A DNA stretch of 64,000 nt, from assembly GCA_026393675.1 (NCBI GenBank), contig JAPKZQ010000040.1, forward strand, positions 62,001-126,000. The letters are read 5' to 3'. Below are positions 37,419-58,906 of this stretch, one piece after another. Below the pieces are notes generated by a model. The model saw nothing but the letters and a program-made list of their open reading frames with translations. It did no database searches and had not been told where the DNA came from. The position numbers and the translations under genes are program-made. Position 1 is the stretch's first letter; every line of letters begins with the position of its first letter. The stretch is from Acidobacteriota bacterium (lineage in GTDB: Bacteria; Acidobacteriota; Vicinamibacteria; Vicinamibacterales; JAKQTR01).

Positions 37419-37493
37419 GTCCCCATCGTCCAGGGGTTAGGACGTGGCCCTTTCAAGGCCGAAACCCGGGTTCGAATCCCGGTGGGGACGCCA
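37419..37493 (+). tRNA. tRNA-Glu (anticodon UUC), attachment target of the element
   Basis: A complete 75-base cloverleaf with CCA. The acceptor stem GTCCCCA/TGGGGAC is perfect, the anticodon loop CTTTCAA carries TTC, and the T arm is CCGGG-TTCGAAT-CCCGG. The final 17 bases are repeated at 58882-58898, so the element entered at the 3' end and left this gene intact. It is a predicted MnmA substrate. Confidence 0.96.
37477..37493 (+). other. attL core of the element
   Basis: The 17-base sequence TCCCGGTGGGGACGCCA, part of tRNA-Glu, is identical to 58882-58898. Flanking bases differ at once on both sides (A and T here, G and C there), which fixes the core length. Confidence 0.88.
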
Positions 37494-37545
37494 TCGATTT
37501 TGCACTCACGGAAGTCTACGGAATTGTGATGGTCGCCTGATCGGT

Positions 37546-40429: not shown

Positions 40430-40959
40430 GCGCTAGTGTCCTTCGTTTCCCAGCCCTCGAAGACCGCGCCCGCATCGTTGCCGCGCGAGCCTCTGGAAGC
40501 GCGTTGGGGCTGTCGCCAACGGAGGCGGGGCTTGTCGCGCAGTTCCGTGCTCTGCCGGCACACGTCCAGCCCCTGATGGTCAACGTAATGCTGGAGACGT
40601 TCGACAAGTTCATGTGCGAGCCGGCCCCTCCGCCCGCTCTCAGTTGGGACGAGCCGTACCGCGAGTCGCAGAGGCAGGCGGTTGAAGCCTTGCGCCAGCG
40701 CCACCACCCGACCCCGCAGACCCCCGTTCCCGGTCCAGACTCGCCCGATGGAGTGTCCGCCCGTGCGTTAGCTCGACTTCACGCCGTGGGCCTGTTCACA
40801 CTGGGGGACCTTGCGCGCTTCAGGAAACACGAACTTGGGCGCTCCGTGAAGTATCTCAACATGAACGCCGCCGACAAGCTGGAGCGGTGGTTCCAGGCGG
40901 CCGGGCTCACGTGGCGCGACGACACGGTTTCGAGCGAAGCGAAAGGCGGCGCGTCATGA
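40426..40959 (+). CDS. Protein with RNA-polymerase alpha-CTD-like C-terminus
   Basis: A 177-residue protein. The last ~55 residues (ARLHAVGLFTLGDLARFRKH, then AADKLERWFQAAGLTW) follow the helix pattern of the RNA polymerase alpha C-terminal domain, a helix-hairpin-helix DNA- and factor-binding fold. The N-terminal half has no name I can give. It overlaps its neighbours by 4 bases on both sides and precedes the tyrosine recombinase. It might act in recombination accessory binding or transcription control; both are inferences. Confidence 0.65.
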   Translation: MSASVLRFPALEDRARIVAARASGSALGLSPTEAGLVAQFRALPAHVQPLMVNVMLETFDKFMCEPAPPPALSWDEPYRESQRQAVEALRQRHHPTPQTPVPGPDSPDGVSARALARLHAVGLFTLGDLARFRKHELGRSVKYLNMNAADKLERWFQAAGLTWRDDTVSSEAKGGAS

Positions 40960-41987
40960 ACACCGCTCCCGCCCTCGCTGTCCCACGGCCGGAGCTCCTG
41001 TCGCCGGCGCTGATGTTCGGCGACCAGCGCCAGCGCAACGCGCGCAGCATCCTGGAGGCCTGGCGGGCCGGCAAGTCGCCCCACACGATGCGAAGCTACG
41101 AGCACGACCTTGAGGCCTTCGCCCGGTTCCTCTCGGCGGGCCTGGACATCGCCCCGTCGCTCACGGTCGAGGCTGCGCTCGATCGACTCTTCCAACAGGA
41201 CAGCGCGAGCGCGCACGGGATCGTTCTGAATTTCCGCGGGTCGCTCCTGGCTGCCAACCTCGCGCCAGCAACGATCAACCGGGCGCTTGCAACTCTCCGC
41301 TCTGTCTCGAAACTCGCTCGCATGCTTGGCGTGGTTCAGGGCGGTTGGATCATCGAGGTTCCGGGCGTGAAGGCCGAACGTCGCCGCGACACGCGCGGGC
41401 CGGCGGTGGAGGACGTGAGACGGATGCTTGAGGCGACGGCCGCCGACACCGAGACGGAGACACGCGACCACGCGATCGTCGCGACGCTGTTCTGCTTGGG
41501 CCTCCGGGTTTCGGAACTGTGCGGACTCAATCTCGAAGAGACGGACCTCGCGCGAGGCACCACCTGGATCCGCGGTAAGGGTCGACGCGAGCGCGAGCTC
41601 GTGCCCCTGCCAGAGACCGTCGTCGCGGCGCTGCGCCGGTATCTGGCGCACCGCGGCGCCGTTGGCCAGGGGCCGCTGTTTCTCAGCCGATCGCATCGGC
41701 CCGGGATCGGCGGCACTAAGAGGCTCCACGCGCGATCGGTGCTGCGCCTGGTCACTGACCTTGGGGAGCGCGTCGGCGTGCGCGTGTGGTGTCACGCGCT
41801 GAGGCACACAGCGATTACAACGGCCGTCGCACGCGGCGCTGCGGCCGGTCTTCGCCTTGACCAGGTGCGCGCCTACAGCCGACACAAGACGGTCGCCACG
41901 TTGATCGGGTATGTCGACGAACACGACCGGGCCGGCGTTCAACGGCAGATTACCGACGTCGTCGCGGCGGCGCTTGCGGCGGCGTGA
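40956..41987 (+). CDS. Tyrosine recombinase (XerC/D-like integrase)
   Basis: A 343-residue recombinase beginning at ATG 40956, which overlaps the previous stop. The N-terminal SAM-like DNA-binding domain includes SPHTMRSYEHDLEAFARFL. The catalytic set is complete: R184 (GLRVSEL), a lysine in the beta hairpin (RGKGRRERELVPLP), H280-x2-R283 (HALRHTAIT), H310 (YSRHKTVATLIGY) and Y319. It cuts and rejoins DNA through a 3'-phosphotyrosine. It is paired with an excisionase-like HTH gene just downstream. Its relation to the element's attachment site is unclear because a serine recombinase gene actually contains attR. Confidence 0.93.
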   Translation: MNTAPALAVPRPELLSPALMFGDQRQRNARSILEAWRAGKSPHTMRSYEHDLEAFARFLSAGLDIAPSLTVEAALDRLFQQDSASAHGIVLNFRGSLLAANLAPATINRALATLRSVSKLARMLGVVQGGWIIEVPGVKAERRRDTRGPAVEDVRRMLEATAADTETETRDHAIVATLFCLGLRVSELCGLNLEETDLARGTTWIRGKGRRERELVPLPETVVAALRRYLAHRGAVGQGPLFLSRSHRPGIGGTKRLHARSVLRLVTDLGERVGVRVWCHALRHTAITTAVARGAAAGLRLDQVRAYSRHKTVATLIGYVDEHDRAGVQRQITDVVAAALAAA

Positions 41988-50859: not shown

Positions 50860-53800
50860 ATGGCGATCAACCTCTACGACGCAACCCTCGAAGCTCTGGA
50901 CGACCAAGAGCCGTCGCCACCAAAGAATCTCTTGCAGCAGACCCTCGATGAGATCACCGCTGACCACTCTCGGTCCTTGCGGGTCGCGACGATGCAGGCA
51001 CGCGACACCACGCCAGATCGCGCAGTCCAGGTGCGACAGCTCTCCGGCACGTTAGGACTCCCACAAGACGTCGTCGAGCGGAACTTCGACTCGCTCTCGA
51101 AGCGGGCCGTTGTGGAGACCACGCCGTACGACGCGATGCTCCAGCAGACTCCGAAGCTGGCCGAGTGGGCATCCGATCCTCACAACGCGGCGATCGCCAA
51201 AGACGACATGGAGCGCCTCGGGTTCCTGGAGTGGATTGTCAAAGCGCCATCGGCCGCCTACGCGAAGACCACTCTTGAGAGCCGCGCGGCGCAGCTCCGC
51301 ACACGGGAACTTCTCGGTGAGCCACTGACGCAACAGCAGTACTTCGAGATGGAGGAACTACAGAAGGCGGCACAGCAGATTGGCGCCGCGGGAGCGGGGG
51401 ATTCGTGGTTCAAGGGAGCCGTCACAGGCGCGGGCAATCTCCTGGCGAACTTCGTCGAGGGTATGGTCACTGCGGCGCCAGAGGTGGCGATCGGCACCGG
51501 CGTCGGTGCGGTCGTCGGTGGCGTCGGTGGCGGGCTTGCGACCGGTGGTGCAGGTATCCTCCCCGGTCTTCGTGCCGGCGCCGCGCTCGGCGCCCGCGTG
51601 GGCGGGTTGGTCGGCGGCGCGAAGTACACCTTCCAGATCGAGGCGGGCAACGCCTACGACGAATACCGCACCTTCAAGGACGAGCTCGGTCGTCCGCTCG
51701 ATCGCGAGACGGCTCGGGCCGCCGCGTTTGCTGCGGGCTCCATCAATGCCGTGCTCGAAGTGGGCGGCATCGAAATGTTCCTCCGAACCATCCCGGGCAT
51801 CAAGGATCTCGGCAAGAAGGGCGTCCGCGAAGTGGTCAAAAGCGCGCTCCGGAATCCGACGATCCGCGCGCAGCTTGTGGCGGTCGCGAAGGACTACGGC
51901 AAGACGCTGACTGGCGAGTCGTTCATTGAAGCCGCTCAGCGTTACTCGACCATCCTGAGCGGGGAATTTGGCAAGGTGGCCGCCGGGCCGAACATTCCCC
52001 TCCGCACGCCTGGCGACATCGCCGGCGACGTGGCGCGCGAATTCGGCGGCGCCCTGCAGTCCTTCTCGCTCGGCCTGGCCATCATGCCGACGGTGGGTCT
52101 CGTGCACGACGCGCAGCGCGCGGTGCGAGCCACCCAAAACGAACACTTCTTCGCGGCACTCGGTGAGGGCGTGTCGCAGTCGAAGACGGTCCAGCGGATG
52201 CCCGAGGCCGCGCAGGCGTTCCTCGCGCAGGCGACGAAGGACGGCCCCGTCGAGACGCTGTACGCGCCCGTGGACACGTTCACGACCTACTGGCAGTCGA
52301 AGGGGTTGGACCCTGCGATCGTCGCGCAGGAGCTGACTGGCAAGGCCGATGCTCTTGAAGTCGCGCAGCGCACGGGTGAGGACCTGGCCATCCCCACCGC
52401 CGCGTATGCGGTGAAGGTGGCCGGCACTGAGCACAATGCGTTCTTCGCGCAGGAACTGCGGCTCGCTCCAGACGAGATGAACGCTCGTGAGGCGACAGCG
52501 TTCCGAGAGACCCTCACGCGGCAGATGGACGAGGCCAAACAGCGCCAGGCTGAAGGGGTCCAGGTGGCGGCGCCGTCCCAGACTGCGCCGATCCACGTGG
52601 CGATTCTTCAGCAACTCGAACAGGCCGGCGTGCCGAGCGAGACGGCGACCAACTACGCGACGCTGGTGGAGTCGGCGATCGGCACGATGGCCGAGCGGGC
52701 CGGCGTCAATCCGGTGGCGCTCTATAACCGGTATCGGCTTCGGGTGCAGCGTCCCGATCTGCAATCTGCTTCAGTGAACGAGACCGCCCCGGCAGTGGTC
52801 AGGCCCGCCGTTGTCGGCGACGCCGGCGCGGCTGCGACACCTCTCGTGGCTGCGCCGGCGTCCTCTCGGACCGCACCGGCCGTCTCAGGCATGGCGGTCG
52901 CGCAACCCACTACTCGTCTCGCGCCGGCGTCGGACGCTTCGCGGGCGCACCAGCCTGCCAGCGGGCAGGCGCGATCGGTCGTCGATGGCCTCCTCACACT
53001 ATCGCAGGACCGCCGCGGCTCGATCACCTTCGGACCCGACCGCCAGGCGACCATCACGCTGCTCGAGCGGGCCGACCTCAGTTCGTTCCTCCACGAGGGT
53101 GGTCACTTCTTCCTCGAAGTCTTCAGCGATCTGGCCGACCAACTGCGCGCGCTCGACCCTGCCACGCTCACGGCCGAACAGCGCCAGCAGCTCGCCGACT
53201 ACGACGCCACGCTGAAGTTTCTGGGTATTGAGAACCGAGCTGGCCTGAGCACCGACCAGCATGAGACGTTCGCTCGCGCGTTCGAATCCTACCTGATGGA
53301 AGGCAAGGCGCCGAGTGTCGCGCTCCGTTCCACGTTTGCCCGGTTCCGCGCTTGGCTCATCGGGATCTACCGGACGCTGGCCGGGTTGGGCGTGAAACTG
53401 TCCGACGACGTACGCGGCGTGTTCGACCGGATACTGACGAGCGACCAGGCCATTGCCGAAGCGGAGGCCGCCGGCAAGGTCGAGGCGATGTTCACGACGC
53501 CCGAGAGCGCCGGCATGGACGCCGCGACGTTCGGCCTCTACTCACAGACCGTCGCCGATGCCTCCCGGATCGCCCGCGAAACGCTCGAACGCCAGGCGCT
53601 GACCGAAGTCCAGCGCGAGCAGACCGACCAGTGGAAGGCGCAGCGCGCCGAGATTGAACAGGCGGTCACGACGGAAGTCCACCAGGAACCGGTCTACGCG
53701 GCCCTGTGGGCGATTCGGAAGGGGACGCGTCCGGATGGTTCCGCGCTCGTCGAAGGCCAGCCAGCCGAGCCGCTACATCTGTCCCGCGCGATTCTGGTGG

Positions 53801-56800
53801 AACGCTACGGCGAAGCGCGGCTGAAGAGGCTGCCGCCGTTCACCTACGCCAAGGAGGGCGGGCTCGACCCCGACGTCGTCGCGGGGCAATTCGGGTTCTC
53901 GTCGGGCGACGAGATGCTGACGGCCATCAGCCAGGCGCCGGCGATGTCGAAGGCGATCGGGCAGGAGGCGAACCGGAGAATGTTGCAGCAGCATGGGTCG
54001 CTCCTCCTGGATGGCAGCCTCCACGAGAAAGCGCAAGCGGCCGTCGCGAACGAGTCACGCGAGCAGGTCGTCCGGCAGGAACTTCGCGCGCTGGCAAAAC
54101 TGAAACGCATCGCCACGCCCTTTGAGCGCGCCGGCAAAGCGGCTGTTGCTGACGCCGAGACGGCACGCGCCTATGAACGCCGCTGGTTCGAAGCCGAAGC
54201 CAAACTCCGGATCGCCATCGCCGAGGGACGCAAGCAGACGGAGATCGACGAGCTGCAGGACGAGCTGCAGGCGGCTCGTGAGAAGACCCAGAGCGGACCG
54301 TCCGTCATCGATGCCGCGATTCCCCGTGCCGCCGACCTGCGGCAGATGGCAGTCGACCGGATCGCCCGCACGCGGATCCGCGACATCAATCCACAGGCCT
54401 TCTGGTCGGCCTCGCGGCGTTCTGCGCAGCTCGCGATCGACGCCGCGGCCAGACAGGACTTCGACGCGGCGATCGTCGCGAAGCAGCAGGAGTTACTGAC
54501 GCTCGCGCTCTACCGCGAAGCGATGCGCGTCAAAGAAGACGTCCAAAAGCGGGTCGGGCGCGCGAAGGACCTGGCAAAGCCGGCTGCCCGAGAACGGCTG
54601 GGCAAGGCCGGCGAGTCGTATCTTGACCAGGTCGACGGGATTCTCGACCGCTACGAATTCGCGCCAGTGTCGAGAACGGCACTCGACCGCCGGGCTTCGC
54701 TGCGGAAGTGGGTCGCGGCGCAGGAGGCTGACGGGATCCCGGTGGATCTGCCCGAGCAACTGCTCGAGGAAACGCGACGCGTCAACTGGCAGGAACTCAC
54801 CGTCGAGGAACTCGTCGGCGTTACCGACGGGCTGCAACAAATCATGCACCTGGCTCGCCTGAAGAACCGACTTCTGAAACTCCAACAGGGCCGCGCGCTC
54901 GACACCGCCGCCACCGCGATCGATCAGTCCATCCGTGCCAACACGCCAGCCAAGGCCCTCCCGTTGGAGTTTGGCCCGCGCGAAGAGCGTCGACGCTCGA
55001 TTGCGGATGTGTTCGCGAGCCTCGCCAAGATTTCCCTGCTCTCACGTGCGCTCGACGGTTACAAGGACGGCGGAGAGATGTGGTCGTCGTTCGTAATGCC
55101 CCTCAACCAGGCGGCCGACTGGGAACAAACGCGCAAGGGGAAGGCCGGCGAAGCGTACTGGGCCATCCTGCGATCGCACTACGCGCCGATGGAGTATGCG
55201 CACTTCGGGCGGAAGACCTTCATCCGAGCCATCAACGCCAGTCTGACCACGGAAGCCCGGCTCGCGGTCGCCCTGAACTGGGGCAACCAGACGAGTCGTG
55301 ACCGCATCCTCTCCGATCCGAGCCGGCGCTGGACCGAGCCGCAAGTCGAAGCGATTCTCGACACGCTCGACGAACGTGACTGGCGATTTGTGCAAGCGAC
55401 GTGGGATTTCCTCGACACGTTCTGGCCTGAGATTGCGGCCAAACAGGAGCGCGTCACTGGAGTGGCTCCCGAGAAAGTGGCTGCGGAGCCGGTCTCAACG
55501 AAGTTCGGGGTAATGCCCGGCGGCTACTACCCGCTGGCGTACGACGCTCGGCTCTCGCCTCGCGCCGCGCGACTCGCCGAAGCCGAAACGGGAAAGACCT
55601 TACTCCAAGCGGCGTACGTGAGTAGCACCACGAGGCGCGGCCACGTCGAGACGCGCGTCTCACATCTCGAACGCCCGGTCCGACTGGATCTGGGCGTGGC
55701 GTTCGGCCACCTCGACCAGGTCATTCACGATCTGGCCTACCACGAGACCCTAATCGACCTCTCCCGACTCCTTCGCGACAAGCGCGTCGCTGAGGCGATT
55801 TACGAGACGCGCGGCGACGCGGTCTATCACCAGTTTACCGAGATGCTCAAGGACGCGGCCACTGGGACGGCACCAGCCACGAATCGCATGGACAAGGCCG
55901 CGAACTGGATGCGCACGGGCACGCAGATCAGCCTGCTCGGGTTCAATTTCTGGACGGCCCTGCAGCAACCGCTCGGGATGTTCAACGGCATGGCGCGTGT
56001 CGGCCCGGTCTGGGTGATGCGCGGGCTCGGCCGGTGGCTGCGCGACGCGGCGCACATGGAAGCGACGACGACTTGGATCGCGGAGGTGTCGCCGCTCATG
56101 CGCGACCGCGTGACGAACGCCACGCAGGACATCAGCGAGCTCCGCTCCGCGCTCCGGCAACCAGGCGGCTGGTTCGATGCGCTCGTGCGCGAGGTCTCGC
56201 GGGGCCGGATGTCCACGGCGCAACTCGCGGACGTCTACCTCTGGCACATCGGCATGGCGCAGCGCGTCGCCGACGTGCCGACGTGGCTCGGGCAGTACAT
56301 GAAAGCGATGGCCGAGCCGACGGAGGGCCTGACCACGCCGGCCGAGCACGAGGCCCGCGCGATCGCGCTCGCCGACCAGGTGGTGCGGGACTTCCAGGGC
56401 ACCTGGCAGGTTCAGGATCTGGCGCATGTCCAGCGCGGCGGGCCAGTGGCGCGGCTGTTTATGGTGTTCTATTCGTACGGCAACGTCGTCTTCAACAGCA
56501 CCGCCGAGATCGTGGGGCGTACGAACTTCCGTAAACCCGGCGACGTCGCCTCGATGCTCGGCGGGCTCTCGCTGCTCTATCTGATGCCCGCGATGGCGAC
56601 GGTCGCGCTGGGGCAACTGGTCGGCCGGAAGCCGCCCTCAGACGAACCCGACAAGTGGGTGAAACAGATCGCGCAAGAGTCGATCGGCACCGCCATGAAC
56701 AGCGTGGTGTTCCTCCGCGAACTCGGCCAACTCGCGCAGGACGGCACGCGTGGGTACGCGGGCCCGGCCGGGATGCGGATGATCCAGGCGGTCTACGGAC

Positions 56801-56988
56801 TCGGTCAGCAAGTGAAGCAGGGCGAATTCGACGAGGGCCTGTGGAAGGCGGTGAACAGCACCGCCGGGATCCTGTTCAGGTATCCCGCGTTGCAGGTTCA
56901 GCGGAGCATCGATGGCGTCGTGGCCTTGTCGGAAGGCACGACCAGCAACCCGATGGCGCTGGTCTCGGGGAAGCCGCTGAAGAAGTAG
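50860..56988 (+). CDS. Giant polyvalent protein with HEGGH metallopeptidase motif (2042 aa)
   Basis: The longest gene of the window. The N-terminal ~400 residues hold Gly-rich hydrophobic stretches (IGTGVGAVVGGVGGGLATGG). A metallopeptidase-like region follows at ~735-845: H745-E746-G747-G748-H749 fits HExxH, with acids E802 and E809 in HETFARAFESYL that could be the third zinc ligand. A long coiled middle leads to a C-terminal part with VARLFMVFYSYGNVVFNSTA and membrane-like segments. The layout matches the large polyvalent proteins that phages and conjugative elements inject with their DNA. It follows the 686-residue gene without a gap. Activity of the peptidase is untested. Confidence 0.82.
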   Translation: MAINLYDATLEALDDQEPSPPKNLLQQTLDEITADHSRSLRVATMQARDTTPDRAVQVRQLSGTLGLPQDVVERNFDSLSKRAVVETTPYDAMLQQTPKLAEWASDPHNAAIAKDDMERLGFLEWIVKAPSAAYAKTTLESRAAQLRTRELLGEPLTQQQYFEMEELQKAAQQIGAAGAGDSWFKGAVTGAGNLLANFVEGMVTAAPEVAIGTGVGAVVGGVGGGLATGGAGILPGLRAGAALGARVGGLVGGAKYTFQIEAGNAYDEYRTFKDELGRPLDRETARAAAFAAGSINAVLEVGGIEMFLRTIPGIKDLGKKGVREVVKSALRNPTIRAQLVAVAKDYGKTLTGESFIEAAQRYSTILSGEFGKVAAGPNIPLRTPGDIAGDVAREFGGALQSFSLGLAIMPTVGLVHDAQRAVRATQNEHFFAALGEGVSQSKTVQRMPEAAQAFLAQATKDGPVETLYAPVDTFTTYWQSKGLDPAIVAQELTGKADALEVAQRTGEDLAIPTAAYAVKVAGTEHNAFFAQELRLAPDEMNAREATAFRETLTRQMDEAKQRQAEGVQVAAPSQTAPIHVAILQQLEQAGVPSETATNYATLVESAIGTMAERAGVNPVALYNRYRLRVQRPDLQSASVNETAPAVVRPAVVGDAGAAATPLVAAPASSRTAPAVSGMAVAQPTTRLAPASDASRAHQPASGQARSVVDGLLTLSQDRRGSITFGPDRQATITLLERADLSSFLHEGGHFFLEVFSDLADQLRALDPATLTAEQRQQLADYDATLKFLGIENRAGLSTDQHETFARAFESYLMEGKAPSVALRSTFARFRAWLIGIYRTLAGLGVKLSDDVRGVFDRILTSDQAIAEAEAAGKVEAMFTTPESAGMDAATFGLYSQTVADASRIARETLERQALTEVQREQTDQWKAQRAEIEQAVTTEVHQEPVYAALWAIRKGTRPDGSALVEGQPAEPLHLSRAILVERYGEARLKRLPPFTYAKEGGLDPDVVAGQFGFSSGDEMLTAISQAPAMSKAIGQEANRRMLQQHGSLLLDGSLHEKAQAAVANESREQVVRQELRALAKLKRIATPFERAGKAAVADAETARAYERRWFEAEAKLRIAIAEGRKQTEIDELQDELQAAREKTQSGPSVIDAAIPRAADLRQMAVDRIARTRIRDINPQAFWSASRRSAQLAIDAAARQDFDAAIVAKQQELLTLALYREAMRVKEDVQKRVGRAKDLAKPAARERLGKAGESYLDQVDGILDRYEFAPVSRTALDRRASLRKWVAAQEADGIPVDLPEQLLEETRRVNWQELTVEELVGVTDGLQQIMHLARLKNRLLKLQQGRALDTAATAIDQSIRANTPAKALPLEFGPREERRRSIADVFASLAKISLLSRALDGYKDGGEMWSSFVMPLNQAADWEQTRKGKAGEAYWAILRSHYAPMEYAHFGRKTFIRAINASLTTEARLAVALNWGNQTSRDRILSDPSRRWTEPQVEAILDTLDERDWRFVQATWDFLDTFWPEIAAKQERVTGVAPEKVAAEPVSTKFGVMPGGYYPLAYDARLSPRAARLAEAETGKTLLQAAYVSSTTRRGHVETRVSHLERPVRLDLGVAFGHLDQVIHDLAYHETLIDLSRLLRDKRVAEAIYETRGDAVYHQFTEMLKDAATGTAPATNRMDKAANWMRTGTQISLLGFNFWTALQQPLGMFNGMARVGPVWVMRGLGRWLRDAAHMEATTTWIAEVSPLMRDRVTNATQDISELRSALRQPGGWFDALVREVSRGRMSTAQLADVYLWHIGMAQRVADVPTWLGQYMKAMAEPTEGLTTPAEHEARAIALADQVVRDFQGTWQVQDLAHVQRGGPVARLFMVFYSYGNVVFNSTAEIVGRTNFRKPGDVASMLGGLSLLYLMPAMATVALGQLVGRKPPSDEPDKWVKQIAQESIGTAMNSVVFLRELGQLAQDGTRGYAGPAGMRMIQAVYGLGQQVKQGEFDEGLWKAVNSTAGILFRYPALQVQRSIDGVVALSEGTTSNPMALVSGKPLKK

Positions 56989-57048: not shown

Positions 57049-57255
57049 GTGTCGAGCCAAACCGCCGTATCATCGTGCGCGCAACCGCCGGATCTCGCCG
57101 AGGTCCTGACGGAAGCGCTCGCCCGCGCGCTTGTGTCGCGGTACCGGCGAACGCACGACATCGGCAACCCTCCACGCGCGCAGCGAGACCGAGCGCTGCA
57201 GGCGCCGCCAACGGAGAGCCATGATCGGGGCCATCTACGCCCGGAAGAGCACTGA
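57049..57255 (+). CDS. Small protein upstream of the serine recombinase (uncertain)
   Basis: A 68-residue frame starting at GTG 57049. Its first half (QPPDLAEVLTEALARALVSR) is a clear helix of the kind found in short genes preceding serine recombinases. The second half overlaps the recombinase start by 35 bases and may be a run-on. No strong ribosome site is visible. Confidence 0.45.
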   Translation: MSSQTAVSSCAQPPDLAEVLTEALARALVSRYRRTHDIGNPPRAQRDRALQAPPTESHDRGHLRPEEH

Positions 57256-58906
57256 GCAGGCCGGCGTCGCCGACGAGCAGAAGTCGGTCACGCGCCAGGT
57301 CGAACGAGCCCGCGCCTACGCGCACCGAAAAGGTTGGACCGTCGCCGACGCCTGTGTGTTCGTCGACGATGGGATCAGCGGCGCCGAATTCGCGGGCCGT
57401 CCTGGGTTCCTTCGGTTGATGAACGCGCTCAAGCCGCGGTCGCCCTTCCAGATCCTCATCATGTCGGAGGAGTCGCGCCTCGGGCGCGAAGCGATCGAAA
57501 CCGCGTACGCCCTGAAGCAGATCATCAGCGCCGGCGTGCGCGTGTTCTTCTACCTCGAAGACCGGGAACGCACGCTCGACACGCCCACCGACAAGATTAT
57601 GTTGAGCCTCACCGCGTTCGCAGACGAGCTCGAGCGCGAGAAGGCGCGACAGCGGACCTACGACGCGATGGCACGGAAGGCTCAGGCGGGCCACGTCACG
57701 GGCGGTCGGGTGTTCGGTTACGACAACGTCCCGGTGATGCTGCCAGGGGCGGACGGGCAATCGTGCAAATCGCACGTCGAGCGCCGCGTCAACGAGGCGG
57801 AGGCGGGCATCATCCGCCGGATCTTCGAGCTCGCCGCGGCCGGCTACGGGAAGAAGCGGATCGCGAAGACTCTCAACGACGAAGGGGCGCCGTGCCCGCG
57901 CGCCCAACAGGGCCGGCCCACCTCCTGGTCGCCGTCGTCGGTGTTCGAAGCCCTGGCCCGTCCGCTCTACCGCGGCGAGATTGTCTGGAACGCGACGAAG
58001 AAGCGGGACCAGTGGGGCCGTCGGCACCAGGCGCCGCGACCAGAGGCCGAGTGGATGCGACTGCCGGCGGAACACCTGCGGATCATCGACGCCGCCCTGT
58101 GGCGTGCCGCACAGGGCCGTCTGACCGAGTCCCGAGACGCGTATCTCTCGAACACCGGCGGAAGCGCCTGGGGCCGGCCGGTAGGCCGCAAGCCGAAATA
58201 CCTGCTGAGCGGGTTCGGCACGTGCTCCGCGTGCGGCGGTTCACTCTACGTCCGCAGTCGCCCTGACGGACCGCATCGGGCCTTCTCCTACGGCTGTTCG
58301 AGCTATCACCTGCGCGGTCGGACGGTCTGCGAGAACTGCTTCGAGATGCCGATGGAACTCGCCAACCGGACGGTGCTCGGCACGCTCCGCAACGAGCTGC
58401 TGCAGCCGGCCATCGCCCGGGCGGCCGTCGAGCGGGCACTCGCCTATCTGCGACCGTCAAGCGAGAACGGGAACCTTGACAACCTCCGGTCAGACCTGGC
58501 CGGGCTCGACGGTGAGCTTGGACGGCTGAGCGGGGCGATCGCAGCTGGCGGGGAATTGCCGACGTTGCTGTCAGCCATCCAGGAGCGCGAGCGACGGCGG
58601 GCGGCCGTGGCTACACGGCTGCACTTAGCGGAAGCCTGGTCGAAGACCACCAGCCTGGACGCCAAGCGCCTCGAGCGCGAGCTACTGAGCGAGCTGGCCG
58701 ACTGGCGGGGCCTGTTGGCGGACGATGCGGAAGCGGCCCGCCCGGTGCTCCAGCAGCTCCTGGTCGGGCGCTTAGCATTTACCCCGCTCGAAGCCGGGCT
58801 CCATGCGCCCGTAGAGTTTCGGGGAAAGGCGTCGATCGGCGGGTTATTGGCCGGCGTGGTTGGGGTGCAAAAAGGGACGTGTCCCGGTGGGGACGCCACA
58901 AGATGA
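57221..58906 (+). CDS. Large serine recombinase whose 3' end contains attR
   Basis: A 561-residue recombinase starting at ATG 57221 (GGAG upstream). The N-terminal resolvase domain has the catalytic serine S10 in YARKSTEQ and the SRLGREAIE region. The recombinase domain follows (GYGKKRIAKTLNDEGAPCPR), then a zinc ribbon (CSACGG and CENC pairs) and a coiled segment (LRSDLAGLDGELGRLSGAIA). The last codons, CPGGDATR-stop, lie across the attR core (58882-58898). In the excised circle the frame would instead run into the left end of the element, replacing the final TR with about 15 other residues ending in GIVMVA. Confidence 0.93.
   Translation: MIGAIYARKSTEQAGVADEQKSVTRQVERARAYAHRKGWTVADACVFVDDGISGAEFAGRPGFLRLMNALKPRSPFQILIMSEESRLGREAIETAYALKQIISAGVRVFFYLEDRERTLDTPTDKIMLSLTAFADELEREKARQRTYDAMARKAQAGHVTGGRVFGYDNVPVMLPGADGQSCKSHVERRVNEAEAGIIRRIFELAAAGYGKKRIAKTLNDEGAPCPRAQQGRPTSWSPSSVFEALARPLYRGEIVWNATKKRDQWGRRHQAPRPEAEWMRLPAEHLRIIDAALWRAAQGRLTESRDAYLSNTGGSAWGRPVGRKPKYLLSGFGTCSACGGSLYVRSRPDGPHRAFSYGCSSYHLRGRTVCENCFEMPMELANRTVLGTLRNELLQPAIARAAVERALAYLRPSSENGNLDNLRSDLAGLDGELGRLSGAIAAGGELPTLLSAIQERERRRAAVATRLHLAEAWSKTTSLDAKRLERELLSELADWRGLLADDAEAARPVLQQLLVGRLAFTPLEAGLHAPVEFRGKASIGGLLAGVVGVQKGTCPGGDATR
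58882..58898 (+). other. attR core of the element
   Basis: Same 17 bases as the 3' end of tRNA-Glu (37477-37493), here inside the last codons of the serine recombinase. The chromosome resumes after it. Confidence 0.88.

Follow-up and report, generated by a model that had tools for sequence, protein, structure and literature searches.

In the Myxococcus phage Mx8 (int/intX), attP lies within the integrase gene; once integrated, the gene acquires a different 3' end and its product a different C-terminus, and the properties of the protein are altered (PMC6070905, citing Tojo 1996 and Magrini 1999). In the mycobacteriophages BPs, Brujita and their relatives, which show integration-dependent immunity, attP lies within a gene, attB is a tRNA gene, and integration strips a tag; both the integrases and the repressors of BPs-like phages carry -AA tags, and it is the repressor tag that is lost by integration (PMC4557955, PMC9934374, PMC9262239, PMC8092301). 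SSV-type archaeal integrases, in which attP at a tRNA gene falls inside the integrase gene, have been named alongside Mx8 in the Islander paper of 2014, which also states that tRNA genes were not among the known targets of serine integrases (PMC4383910). The main text of a 2022 survey of large serine recombinases (LSRs) makes no mention of tRNA. We did not find the arrangement presented here described in the open-access literature that we searched, most subscription papers lying outside that search.

The window (the whole stretch of DNA analysed, 64,000 nucleotides from an Acidobacteriota bacterium) carries the following features:

37419-37493, + strand: target gene tRNA-Glu(TTC), left complete by integration (ARAGORN)
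37477-37493, + strand: attL core copy, tRNA side of the element (exact repeat)
37494-37540, + strand: displaced 3' end of the recombinase gene, putatively encoding the excised-form tail IDFALTEVYGIVMVA and stop (in-silico join; tail conservation in relatives)
37494-58898, no strand: integrated phage-like element, ~21.4 kb (bounded by the cores; PHROG matches)
37498-37505, + strand: attP arm TTTTGCAC (in-silico join, inverted repeat)
57221-58906, + strand: LSR gene, integrated form, 561 aa, ending GGDATR (ORF translation, domain matches)
58865-58872, + strand: attP arm GTGCAAAA, within coding sequence (in-silico join, inverted repeat)
58882-58898, + strand: attR core copy within the recombinase gene (exact repeat)
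58899-58906, + strand: host-side DNA giving the end of the integrated protein, TR and stop (sequence)

The recombinase open reading frame runs from an ATG at 57221 to a stop at 58904-58906. A protein was counted as an LSR if it combined a Resolvase N-terminal domain, a Recombinase domain and a zinc ribbon in ~450-650 aa; the 561-aa product matches all three (PF00239, PF07508 and PF13408) above the cut-offs and has the catalytic-serine motif (Y/I)xRxS as IYARKS, with S10 invariant in 11 aligned relatives. Judged by its sequence, it is a large serine recombinase (phage Int-S) and resembles the large serine integrases Bxb1, PhiC31, TP901-1 and A118 in domain order, fold and conserved catalytic serine. 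The differences from this group lie in the tRNA target and at the C-terminus; distant LSRs on viral contigs mostly have no -AA extension of the kind described below.

The window contains exactly two copies of the 17-bp core TCCCGGTGGGGACGCCA, at 37477-37493 and 58882-58898, and none on the other strand; for any given 17-mer, the probability that 128 kb of strand holds a further copy by chance is ~1e-5. The first copy is the 3' end of tRNA-Glu(TTC), and the second falls in frame within the final codons of the recombinase gene, as had been claimed in an earlier note on this DNA, whose coordinates and translations were right. The integrated protein indeed ends TR (C-terminus CPGGDATR). The note had also placed a second ending in the excised circle, and in our in-silico join the frame does pass from 58898 to 37494 and read IDFALTEVYGIVMVA to a TGA at 37538-37540. 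The joined protein has the C-terminus CPGGDAIDFALTEVYGIVMVA, and the predicted excised form ends GGDAIDFALTEVYGIVMVA, that is, in -MVA, differing from the canonical -AA.

PHROG matches in the element include a terminase, a primase/helicase, an endolysin-like protein and a 2042-aa protein; the gene of the last (50860-56988; phrog_9880, LPD22 domain) accounts for over a quarter of the element's length. A search of 20 relatives with both flanks returned no empty attachment site, because the right flank had no real match; the left flank and the tRNA were matched. In a same-genus genome (L145, G004:C21:62846-63966), a broken relative of the recombinase follows the same tRNA-Glu and has the usual orientation.

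How general is the overlap between recombinase gene and core? Of the related LSR genes with an antisense tRNA gene directly adjoining them, all 44 run through the core and into the tRNA before reaching a stop, and none of these homologues stops short of the core. Their targets are tRNA-Glu, -Met, -Ala, -Ser, -Leu or -Arg, and their hosts are Acidobacteria, Nitrospira and others. The integrated proteins of the relatives end in translated antisense tRNA, such as ASPTGFEPVFQP, GVPNGI, WRPQRDSNP and AGAGFEPATFGL. All three reading frames occur at tRNA-Glu (18, 5 and 2 cases), so the integrated endings have no protein signal in common. At the level of sequence, integration is shown to sever the gene from its last codons and to give the protein a host-encoded end; the two protein forms set by integration state, as the earlier note had proposed, are supported and hold true across the family. 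Host-encoded tails would explain the odd antisense-tRNA endings (GFEPATFGL, RDSNP) on the integrated recombinases seen here, and they would be a warning for genome engineering, in which LSRs taken from integrated genomes may have host-encoded rather than native tails. Such tRNA-adjacent LSRs would also be relevant to the published view that tRNA genes are not known targets of serine integrases. Some elements form tandem arrays behind one tRNA gene (G043C37, L031-L032; G232b, L315-L317; G003C1, L044-L047), and within one such array several far ends each restore an -AA or -VA tail.

To reconstruct excised tails, the far end of an element was located by a direct repeat covering 11 bp or more of the core, regardless of the outcome, and joined to the gene, which gave 20 candidate joins. 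Without filtering, 15 of the 20 end in -AA, -VA or -LA ([AVL]A, a set picked after the first tails had been seen). The same ending was found in 119/4987 random joins (2.4%; same genes, random points within the same elements), in 43/876 long ORFs of the same DNA (4.9%) and in 1/44 integrated tails. Compared to the random joins, the binomial p is ~6e-21, a value that overstates independence because some elements are mutually related. The statistics include extra joins without -AA (G152, one at G162 and two at G056), some of which are probably chance repeats. Additional -AA tails were reconstructed at tRNA-Glu, tRNA-Ala and a tRNA without assigned type; those of G158, G156, G171C83, G232a and G232b (two) come from elements that have no recognised tRNA or were added later. 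Among the excised forms, the tail of G112C11 ends ..VTRHLAA and that of G151 (Nitrospira moscoviensis, with an element of 17.2 kb) ends ..IPFQGVVQAA. Exceptions are G154, with a tail ending -AVAI, and three distant relatives, located at tRNA-Met or sites like it, whose tails end -KK, -LQ or -TA (G235/L326, G167C88/L327 and G188/L318). The 11 closest LSRs on viral contigs appear to display the free form directly: 8 of them end RAA, KAA, MAA or KVA, compared to 5 of 57 more distant viral-contig LSRs. A free-form-like case ending ..TTRRAA is also present on a Gemmatimonadetes contig (L082). A scan of viral contigs with the window protein alone gave no match.

The last codons vary (GCA, GCC, GCG, GCT, GTG, GTC and TTG) and stops of all three kinds are used. 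Because the Ala codons and the stop codons vary, the amino acids are the conserved feature, and a DNA-level cause of -AA (e.g. a fixed GCATGA overlapping a downstream start) was ruled out. G153 and G158 cross the core in a different frame from G162, and the tail LSFxIxLxVxAA is still common to them. Moreover, the tails of G153 and G158 share ~80% DNA identity as far as the stop but show no relationship immediately beyond it; this abrupt loss of similarity is better evidence than the codon-position bias in tail pairs, which is modest by itself. In a structure model of the L129 free form (mean pLDDT 79.8), a disordered linker spans the att region (551-573) and is followed by a strand (575-582) and three flexible last residues. 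The tail is thus predicted to consist of a strand followed by a C-terminal dipeptide that looks like an ssrA-like ClpXP degron. The idea that it forms the usual final strand of all LSRs was not supported, as distant viral-contig LSRs are without the extension and mostly without -AA. A search for the host tmRNA tag gave tRNA-like matches only. The earlier note had named a conserved IDFALTEV-like tail as something that would support its reading; a tail is indeed conserved, as a beta strand and a C-terminal -AA/-VA and not as the IDFALTEV sequence itself. In the sequences compared, conservation of the lost tail (strand and terminal -AA, -VA or -LA) is shown in related LSRs at several tRNA genes, and this family-wide conservation makes an integration-state switch plausible.

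We think it rather probable that the element was integrated at the tRNA-Glu 3' end by its own LSR, with attP in the 3' end of the LSR gene, and that the free form carries an ssrA-like degron that is lost on integration. The terminal residues would be recognised by ClpXP or a similar protease, and therefore the recombinase of the free element would be short-lived and that of the integrated copy stable. We infer that the tail would affect recombinase stability, the free-form protein being a protease substrate and the integrated form not. A short-lived free form would limit the enzyme in infection or replication, and the integrated copy would hold a stable pool of recombinase ready for RDF-driven excision; after excision, newly made enzyme would be unstable again and re-integration disfavoured. 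If this is true, the enzyme that catalyses integration thereby edits its own lifetime, which would make a one-gene switch without a repressor, across phyla. It is about an even call whether these proteins represent a class of tRNA-targeting large serine integrases that is widespread, has not been described before and regulates itself through a recombination-removable degron, with the enzyme short-lived from the free element and stable from the integrated one.

With Mx8 the locus shares an attP inside the reading frame of the integrase and a C-terminus that is altered by integration, both in the window sequence and in 44/44 relatives. It differs in that the enzyme is a serine recombinase and that the host-side end in the relatives is a tRNA gene read antisense; relatives with a common removable -AA tail are not described for Mx8 in the part of its literature available. 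In BPs and Brujita it is the repressor gene that is split, and the tyrosine integrase keeps its own tag, whereas here the split gene is that of the integrase itself, a serine enzyme and the one recombinase common to all elements. The tag may have a counterpart in the -AA, -VA or -LA of the relatives' joins (15/20) and in the predicted -VA of the window's tail. As attP of the window lies within the recombinase gene and not in a repressor gene, the locus would work like integration-dependent immunity and is not a member of it. Mycobacteriophage repressors, cited in the earlier note, are an apt comparison; Mx8, with attP in int itself, comes closer. The best reading of our analysis is that the present case would join Mx8 int/intX and BPs-type tag removal in one protein, a serine enzyme at tRNA genes. 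SSV integrases belong to the tyrosine family, and their integration partitions the gene; here, a complete catalytic protein remains and the tail alone changes.

Could the tail instead be chiefly structural? Its beta strand would then complete or cap the C-terminal domain, and loss of the tail would alter the activity of the enzyme or its choice of site, an effect reported for Mx8; the alanines would be secondary. The strand is predicted in the tail, and the specificity of the Mx8 integrase shifts after integration (PMC6070905). This is the leading alternative, given that the homologous strand FSPTIRVPLR persists without -AA in two distant relatives: two of G235, G167C88 and G188 share it and end -KK or -LQ (the third ends -TA), and the strand is therefore kept where -AA is not. 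However, the most constant feature of the tails is the terminal dipeptide, whereas the strand differs in sequence between tails and is not clearly present in several of them (G075C61, ..TEQRLLIAAA; G088C98, ..LYRQLCWAAA). We consider a chiefly structural tail unlikely, though by no means negligible. It is improbable that the overlap simply results from compact packing, with both tails dispensable and without effect. The integrated tails run through the tRNA in all three frames with no common sequence logic, and many LSRs do without such an extension, but neutral tails would not be expected to end in [AVL]A in 15/20 joins, nor to be common in frame to genes that cross the core in different frames.

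When the ends of the element are joined, attP contains a perfect 8-bp inverted repeat, GTGCAAAA at 58865-58872 and TTTTGCAC at 37498-37505, whose arms are 30 bp apart and centred within the core; 8/8 was reached in 1/2000 shuffles. Among the relatives, attP dyads exceed background in a few only, and we therefore do not use the dyad as a general argument. We take the LSR to be the integrase, which would recombine attP with attB, because its gene overlaps the tRNA core in 44/44 relatives, the attP arms are centred in the core and the tyrosine integrase of the window has no relative in any other element examined. That this intact-looking tyrosine integrase (40887-41987) uses the tRNA-Glu core, the serine recombinase merely lying at the element end, is very improbable: islands at tRNA genes are classically credited to tyrosine integrases (PMC4383910), but it is the LSR that adjoins the tRNA core in all 44 cases, and the core is central in a long-spaced dyad, as expected of an LSR attP. 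The tyrosine integrase itself ends ..VVAAALAAA, another -AA end.

Finally, the orientation of the site distinguishes the window from its relatives. In 44/44 relatives the tRNA gene lies at the recombinase end and opposes the gene, whereas in the window it is at the opposite end of the element. The left-end half-site of the window, when reverse-complemented, matches the recombinase-side half-site of L002, a 70%-identical relative, at 21/24 bases. If the 30 bp enclosed by the 8-bp arms are inverted in silico, the frame is kept and the result is VGVQNRWRPHRDTSLFALTEVYGIVMVA, to which VGVHERWRPQRDSNP of L002 is similar. Compared with all 44 relatives, the att site (37494-37505 and 58865-58898) lies inverted with respect to the recombinase gene. 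The simplest account would be an inversion between the arms of the inner part of attP (equivalently, of the element body) with the terminal tail retained. At a Nitrospira locus (L110, L110:6329), the core lies beside the recombinase in the orientation of the window, and this seems to be a second inverted case.
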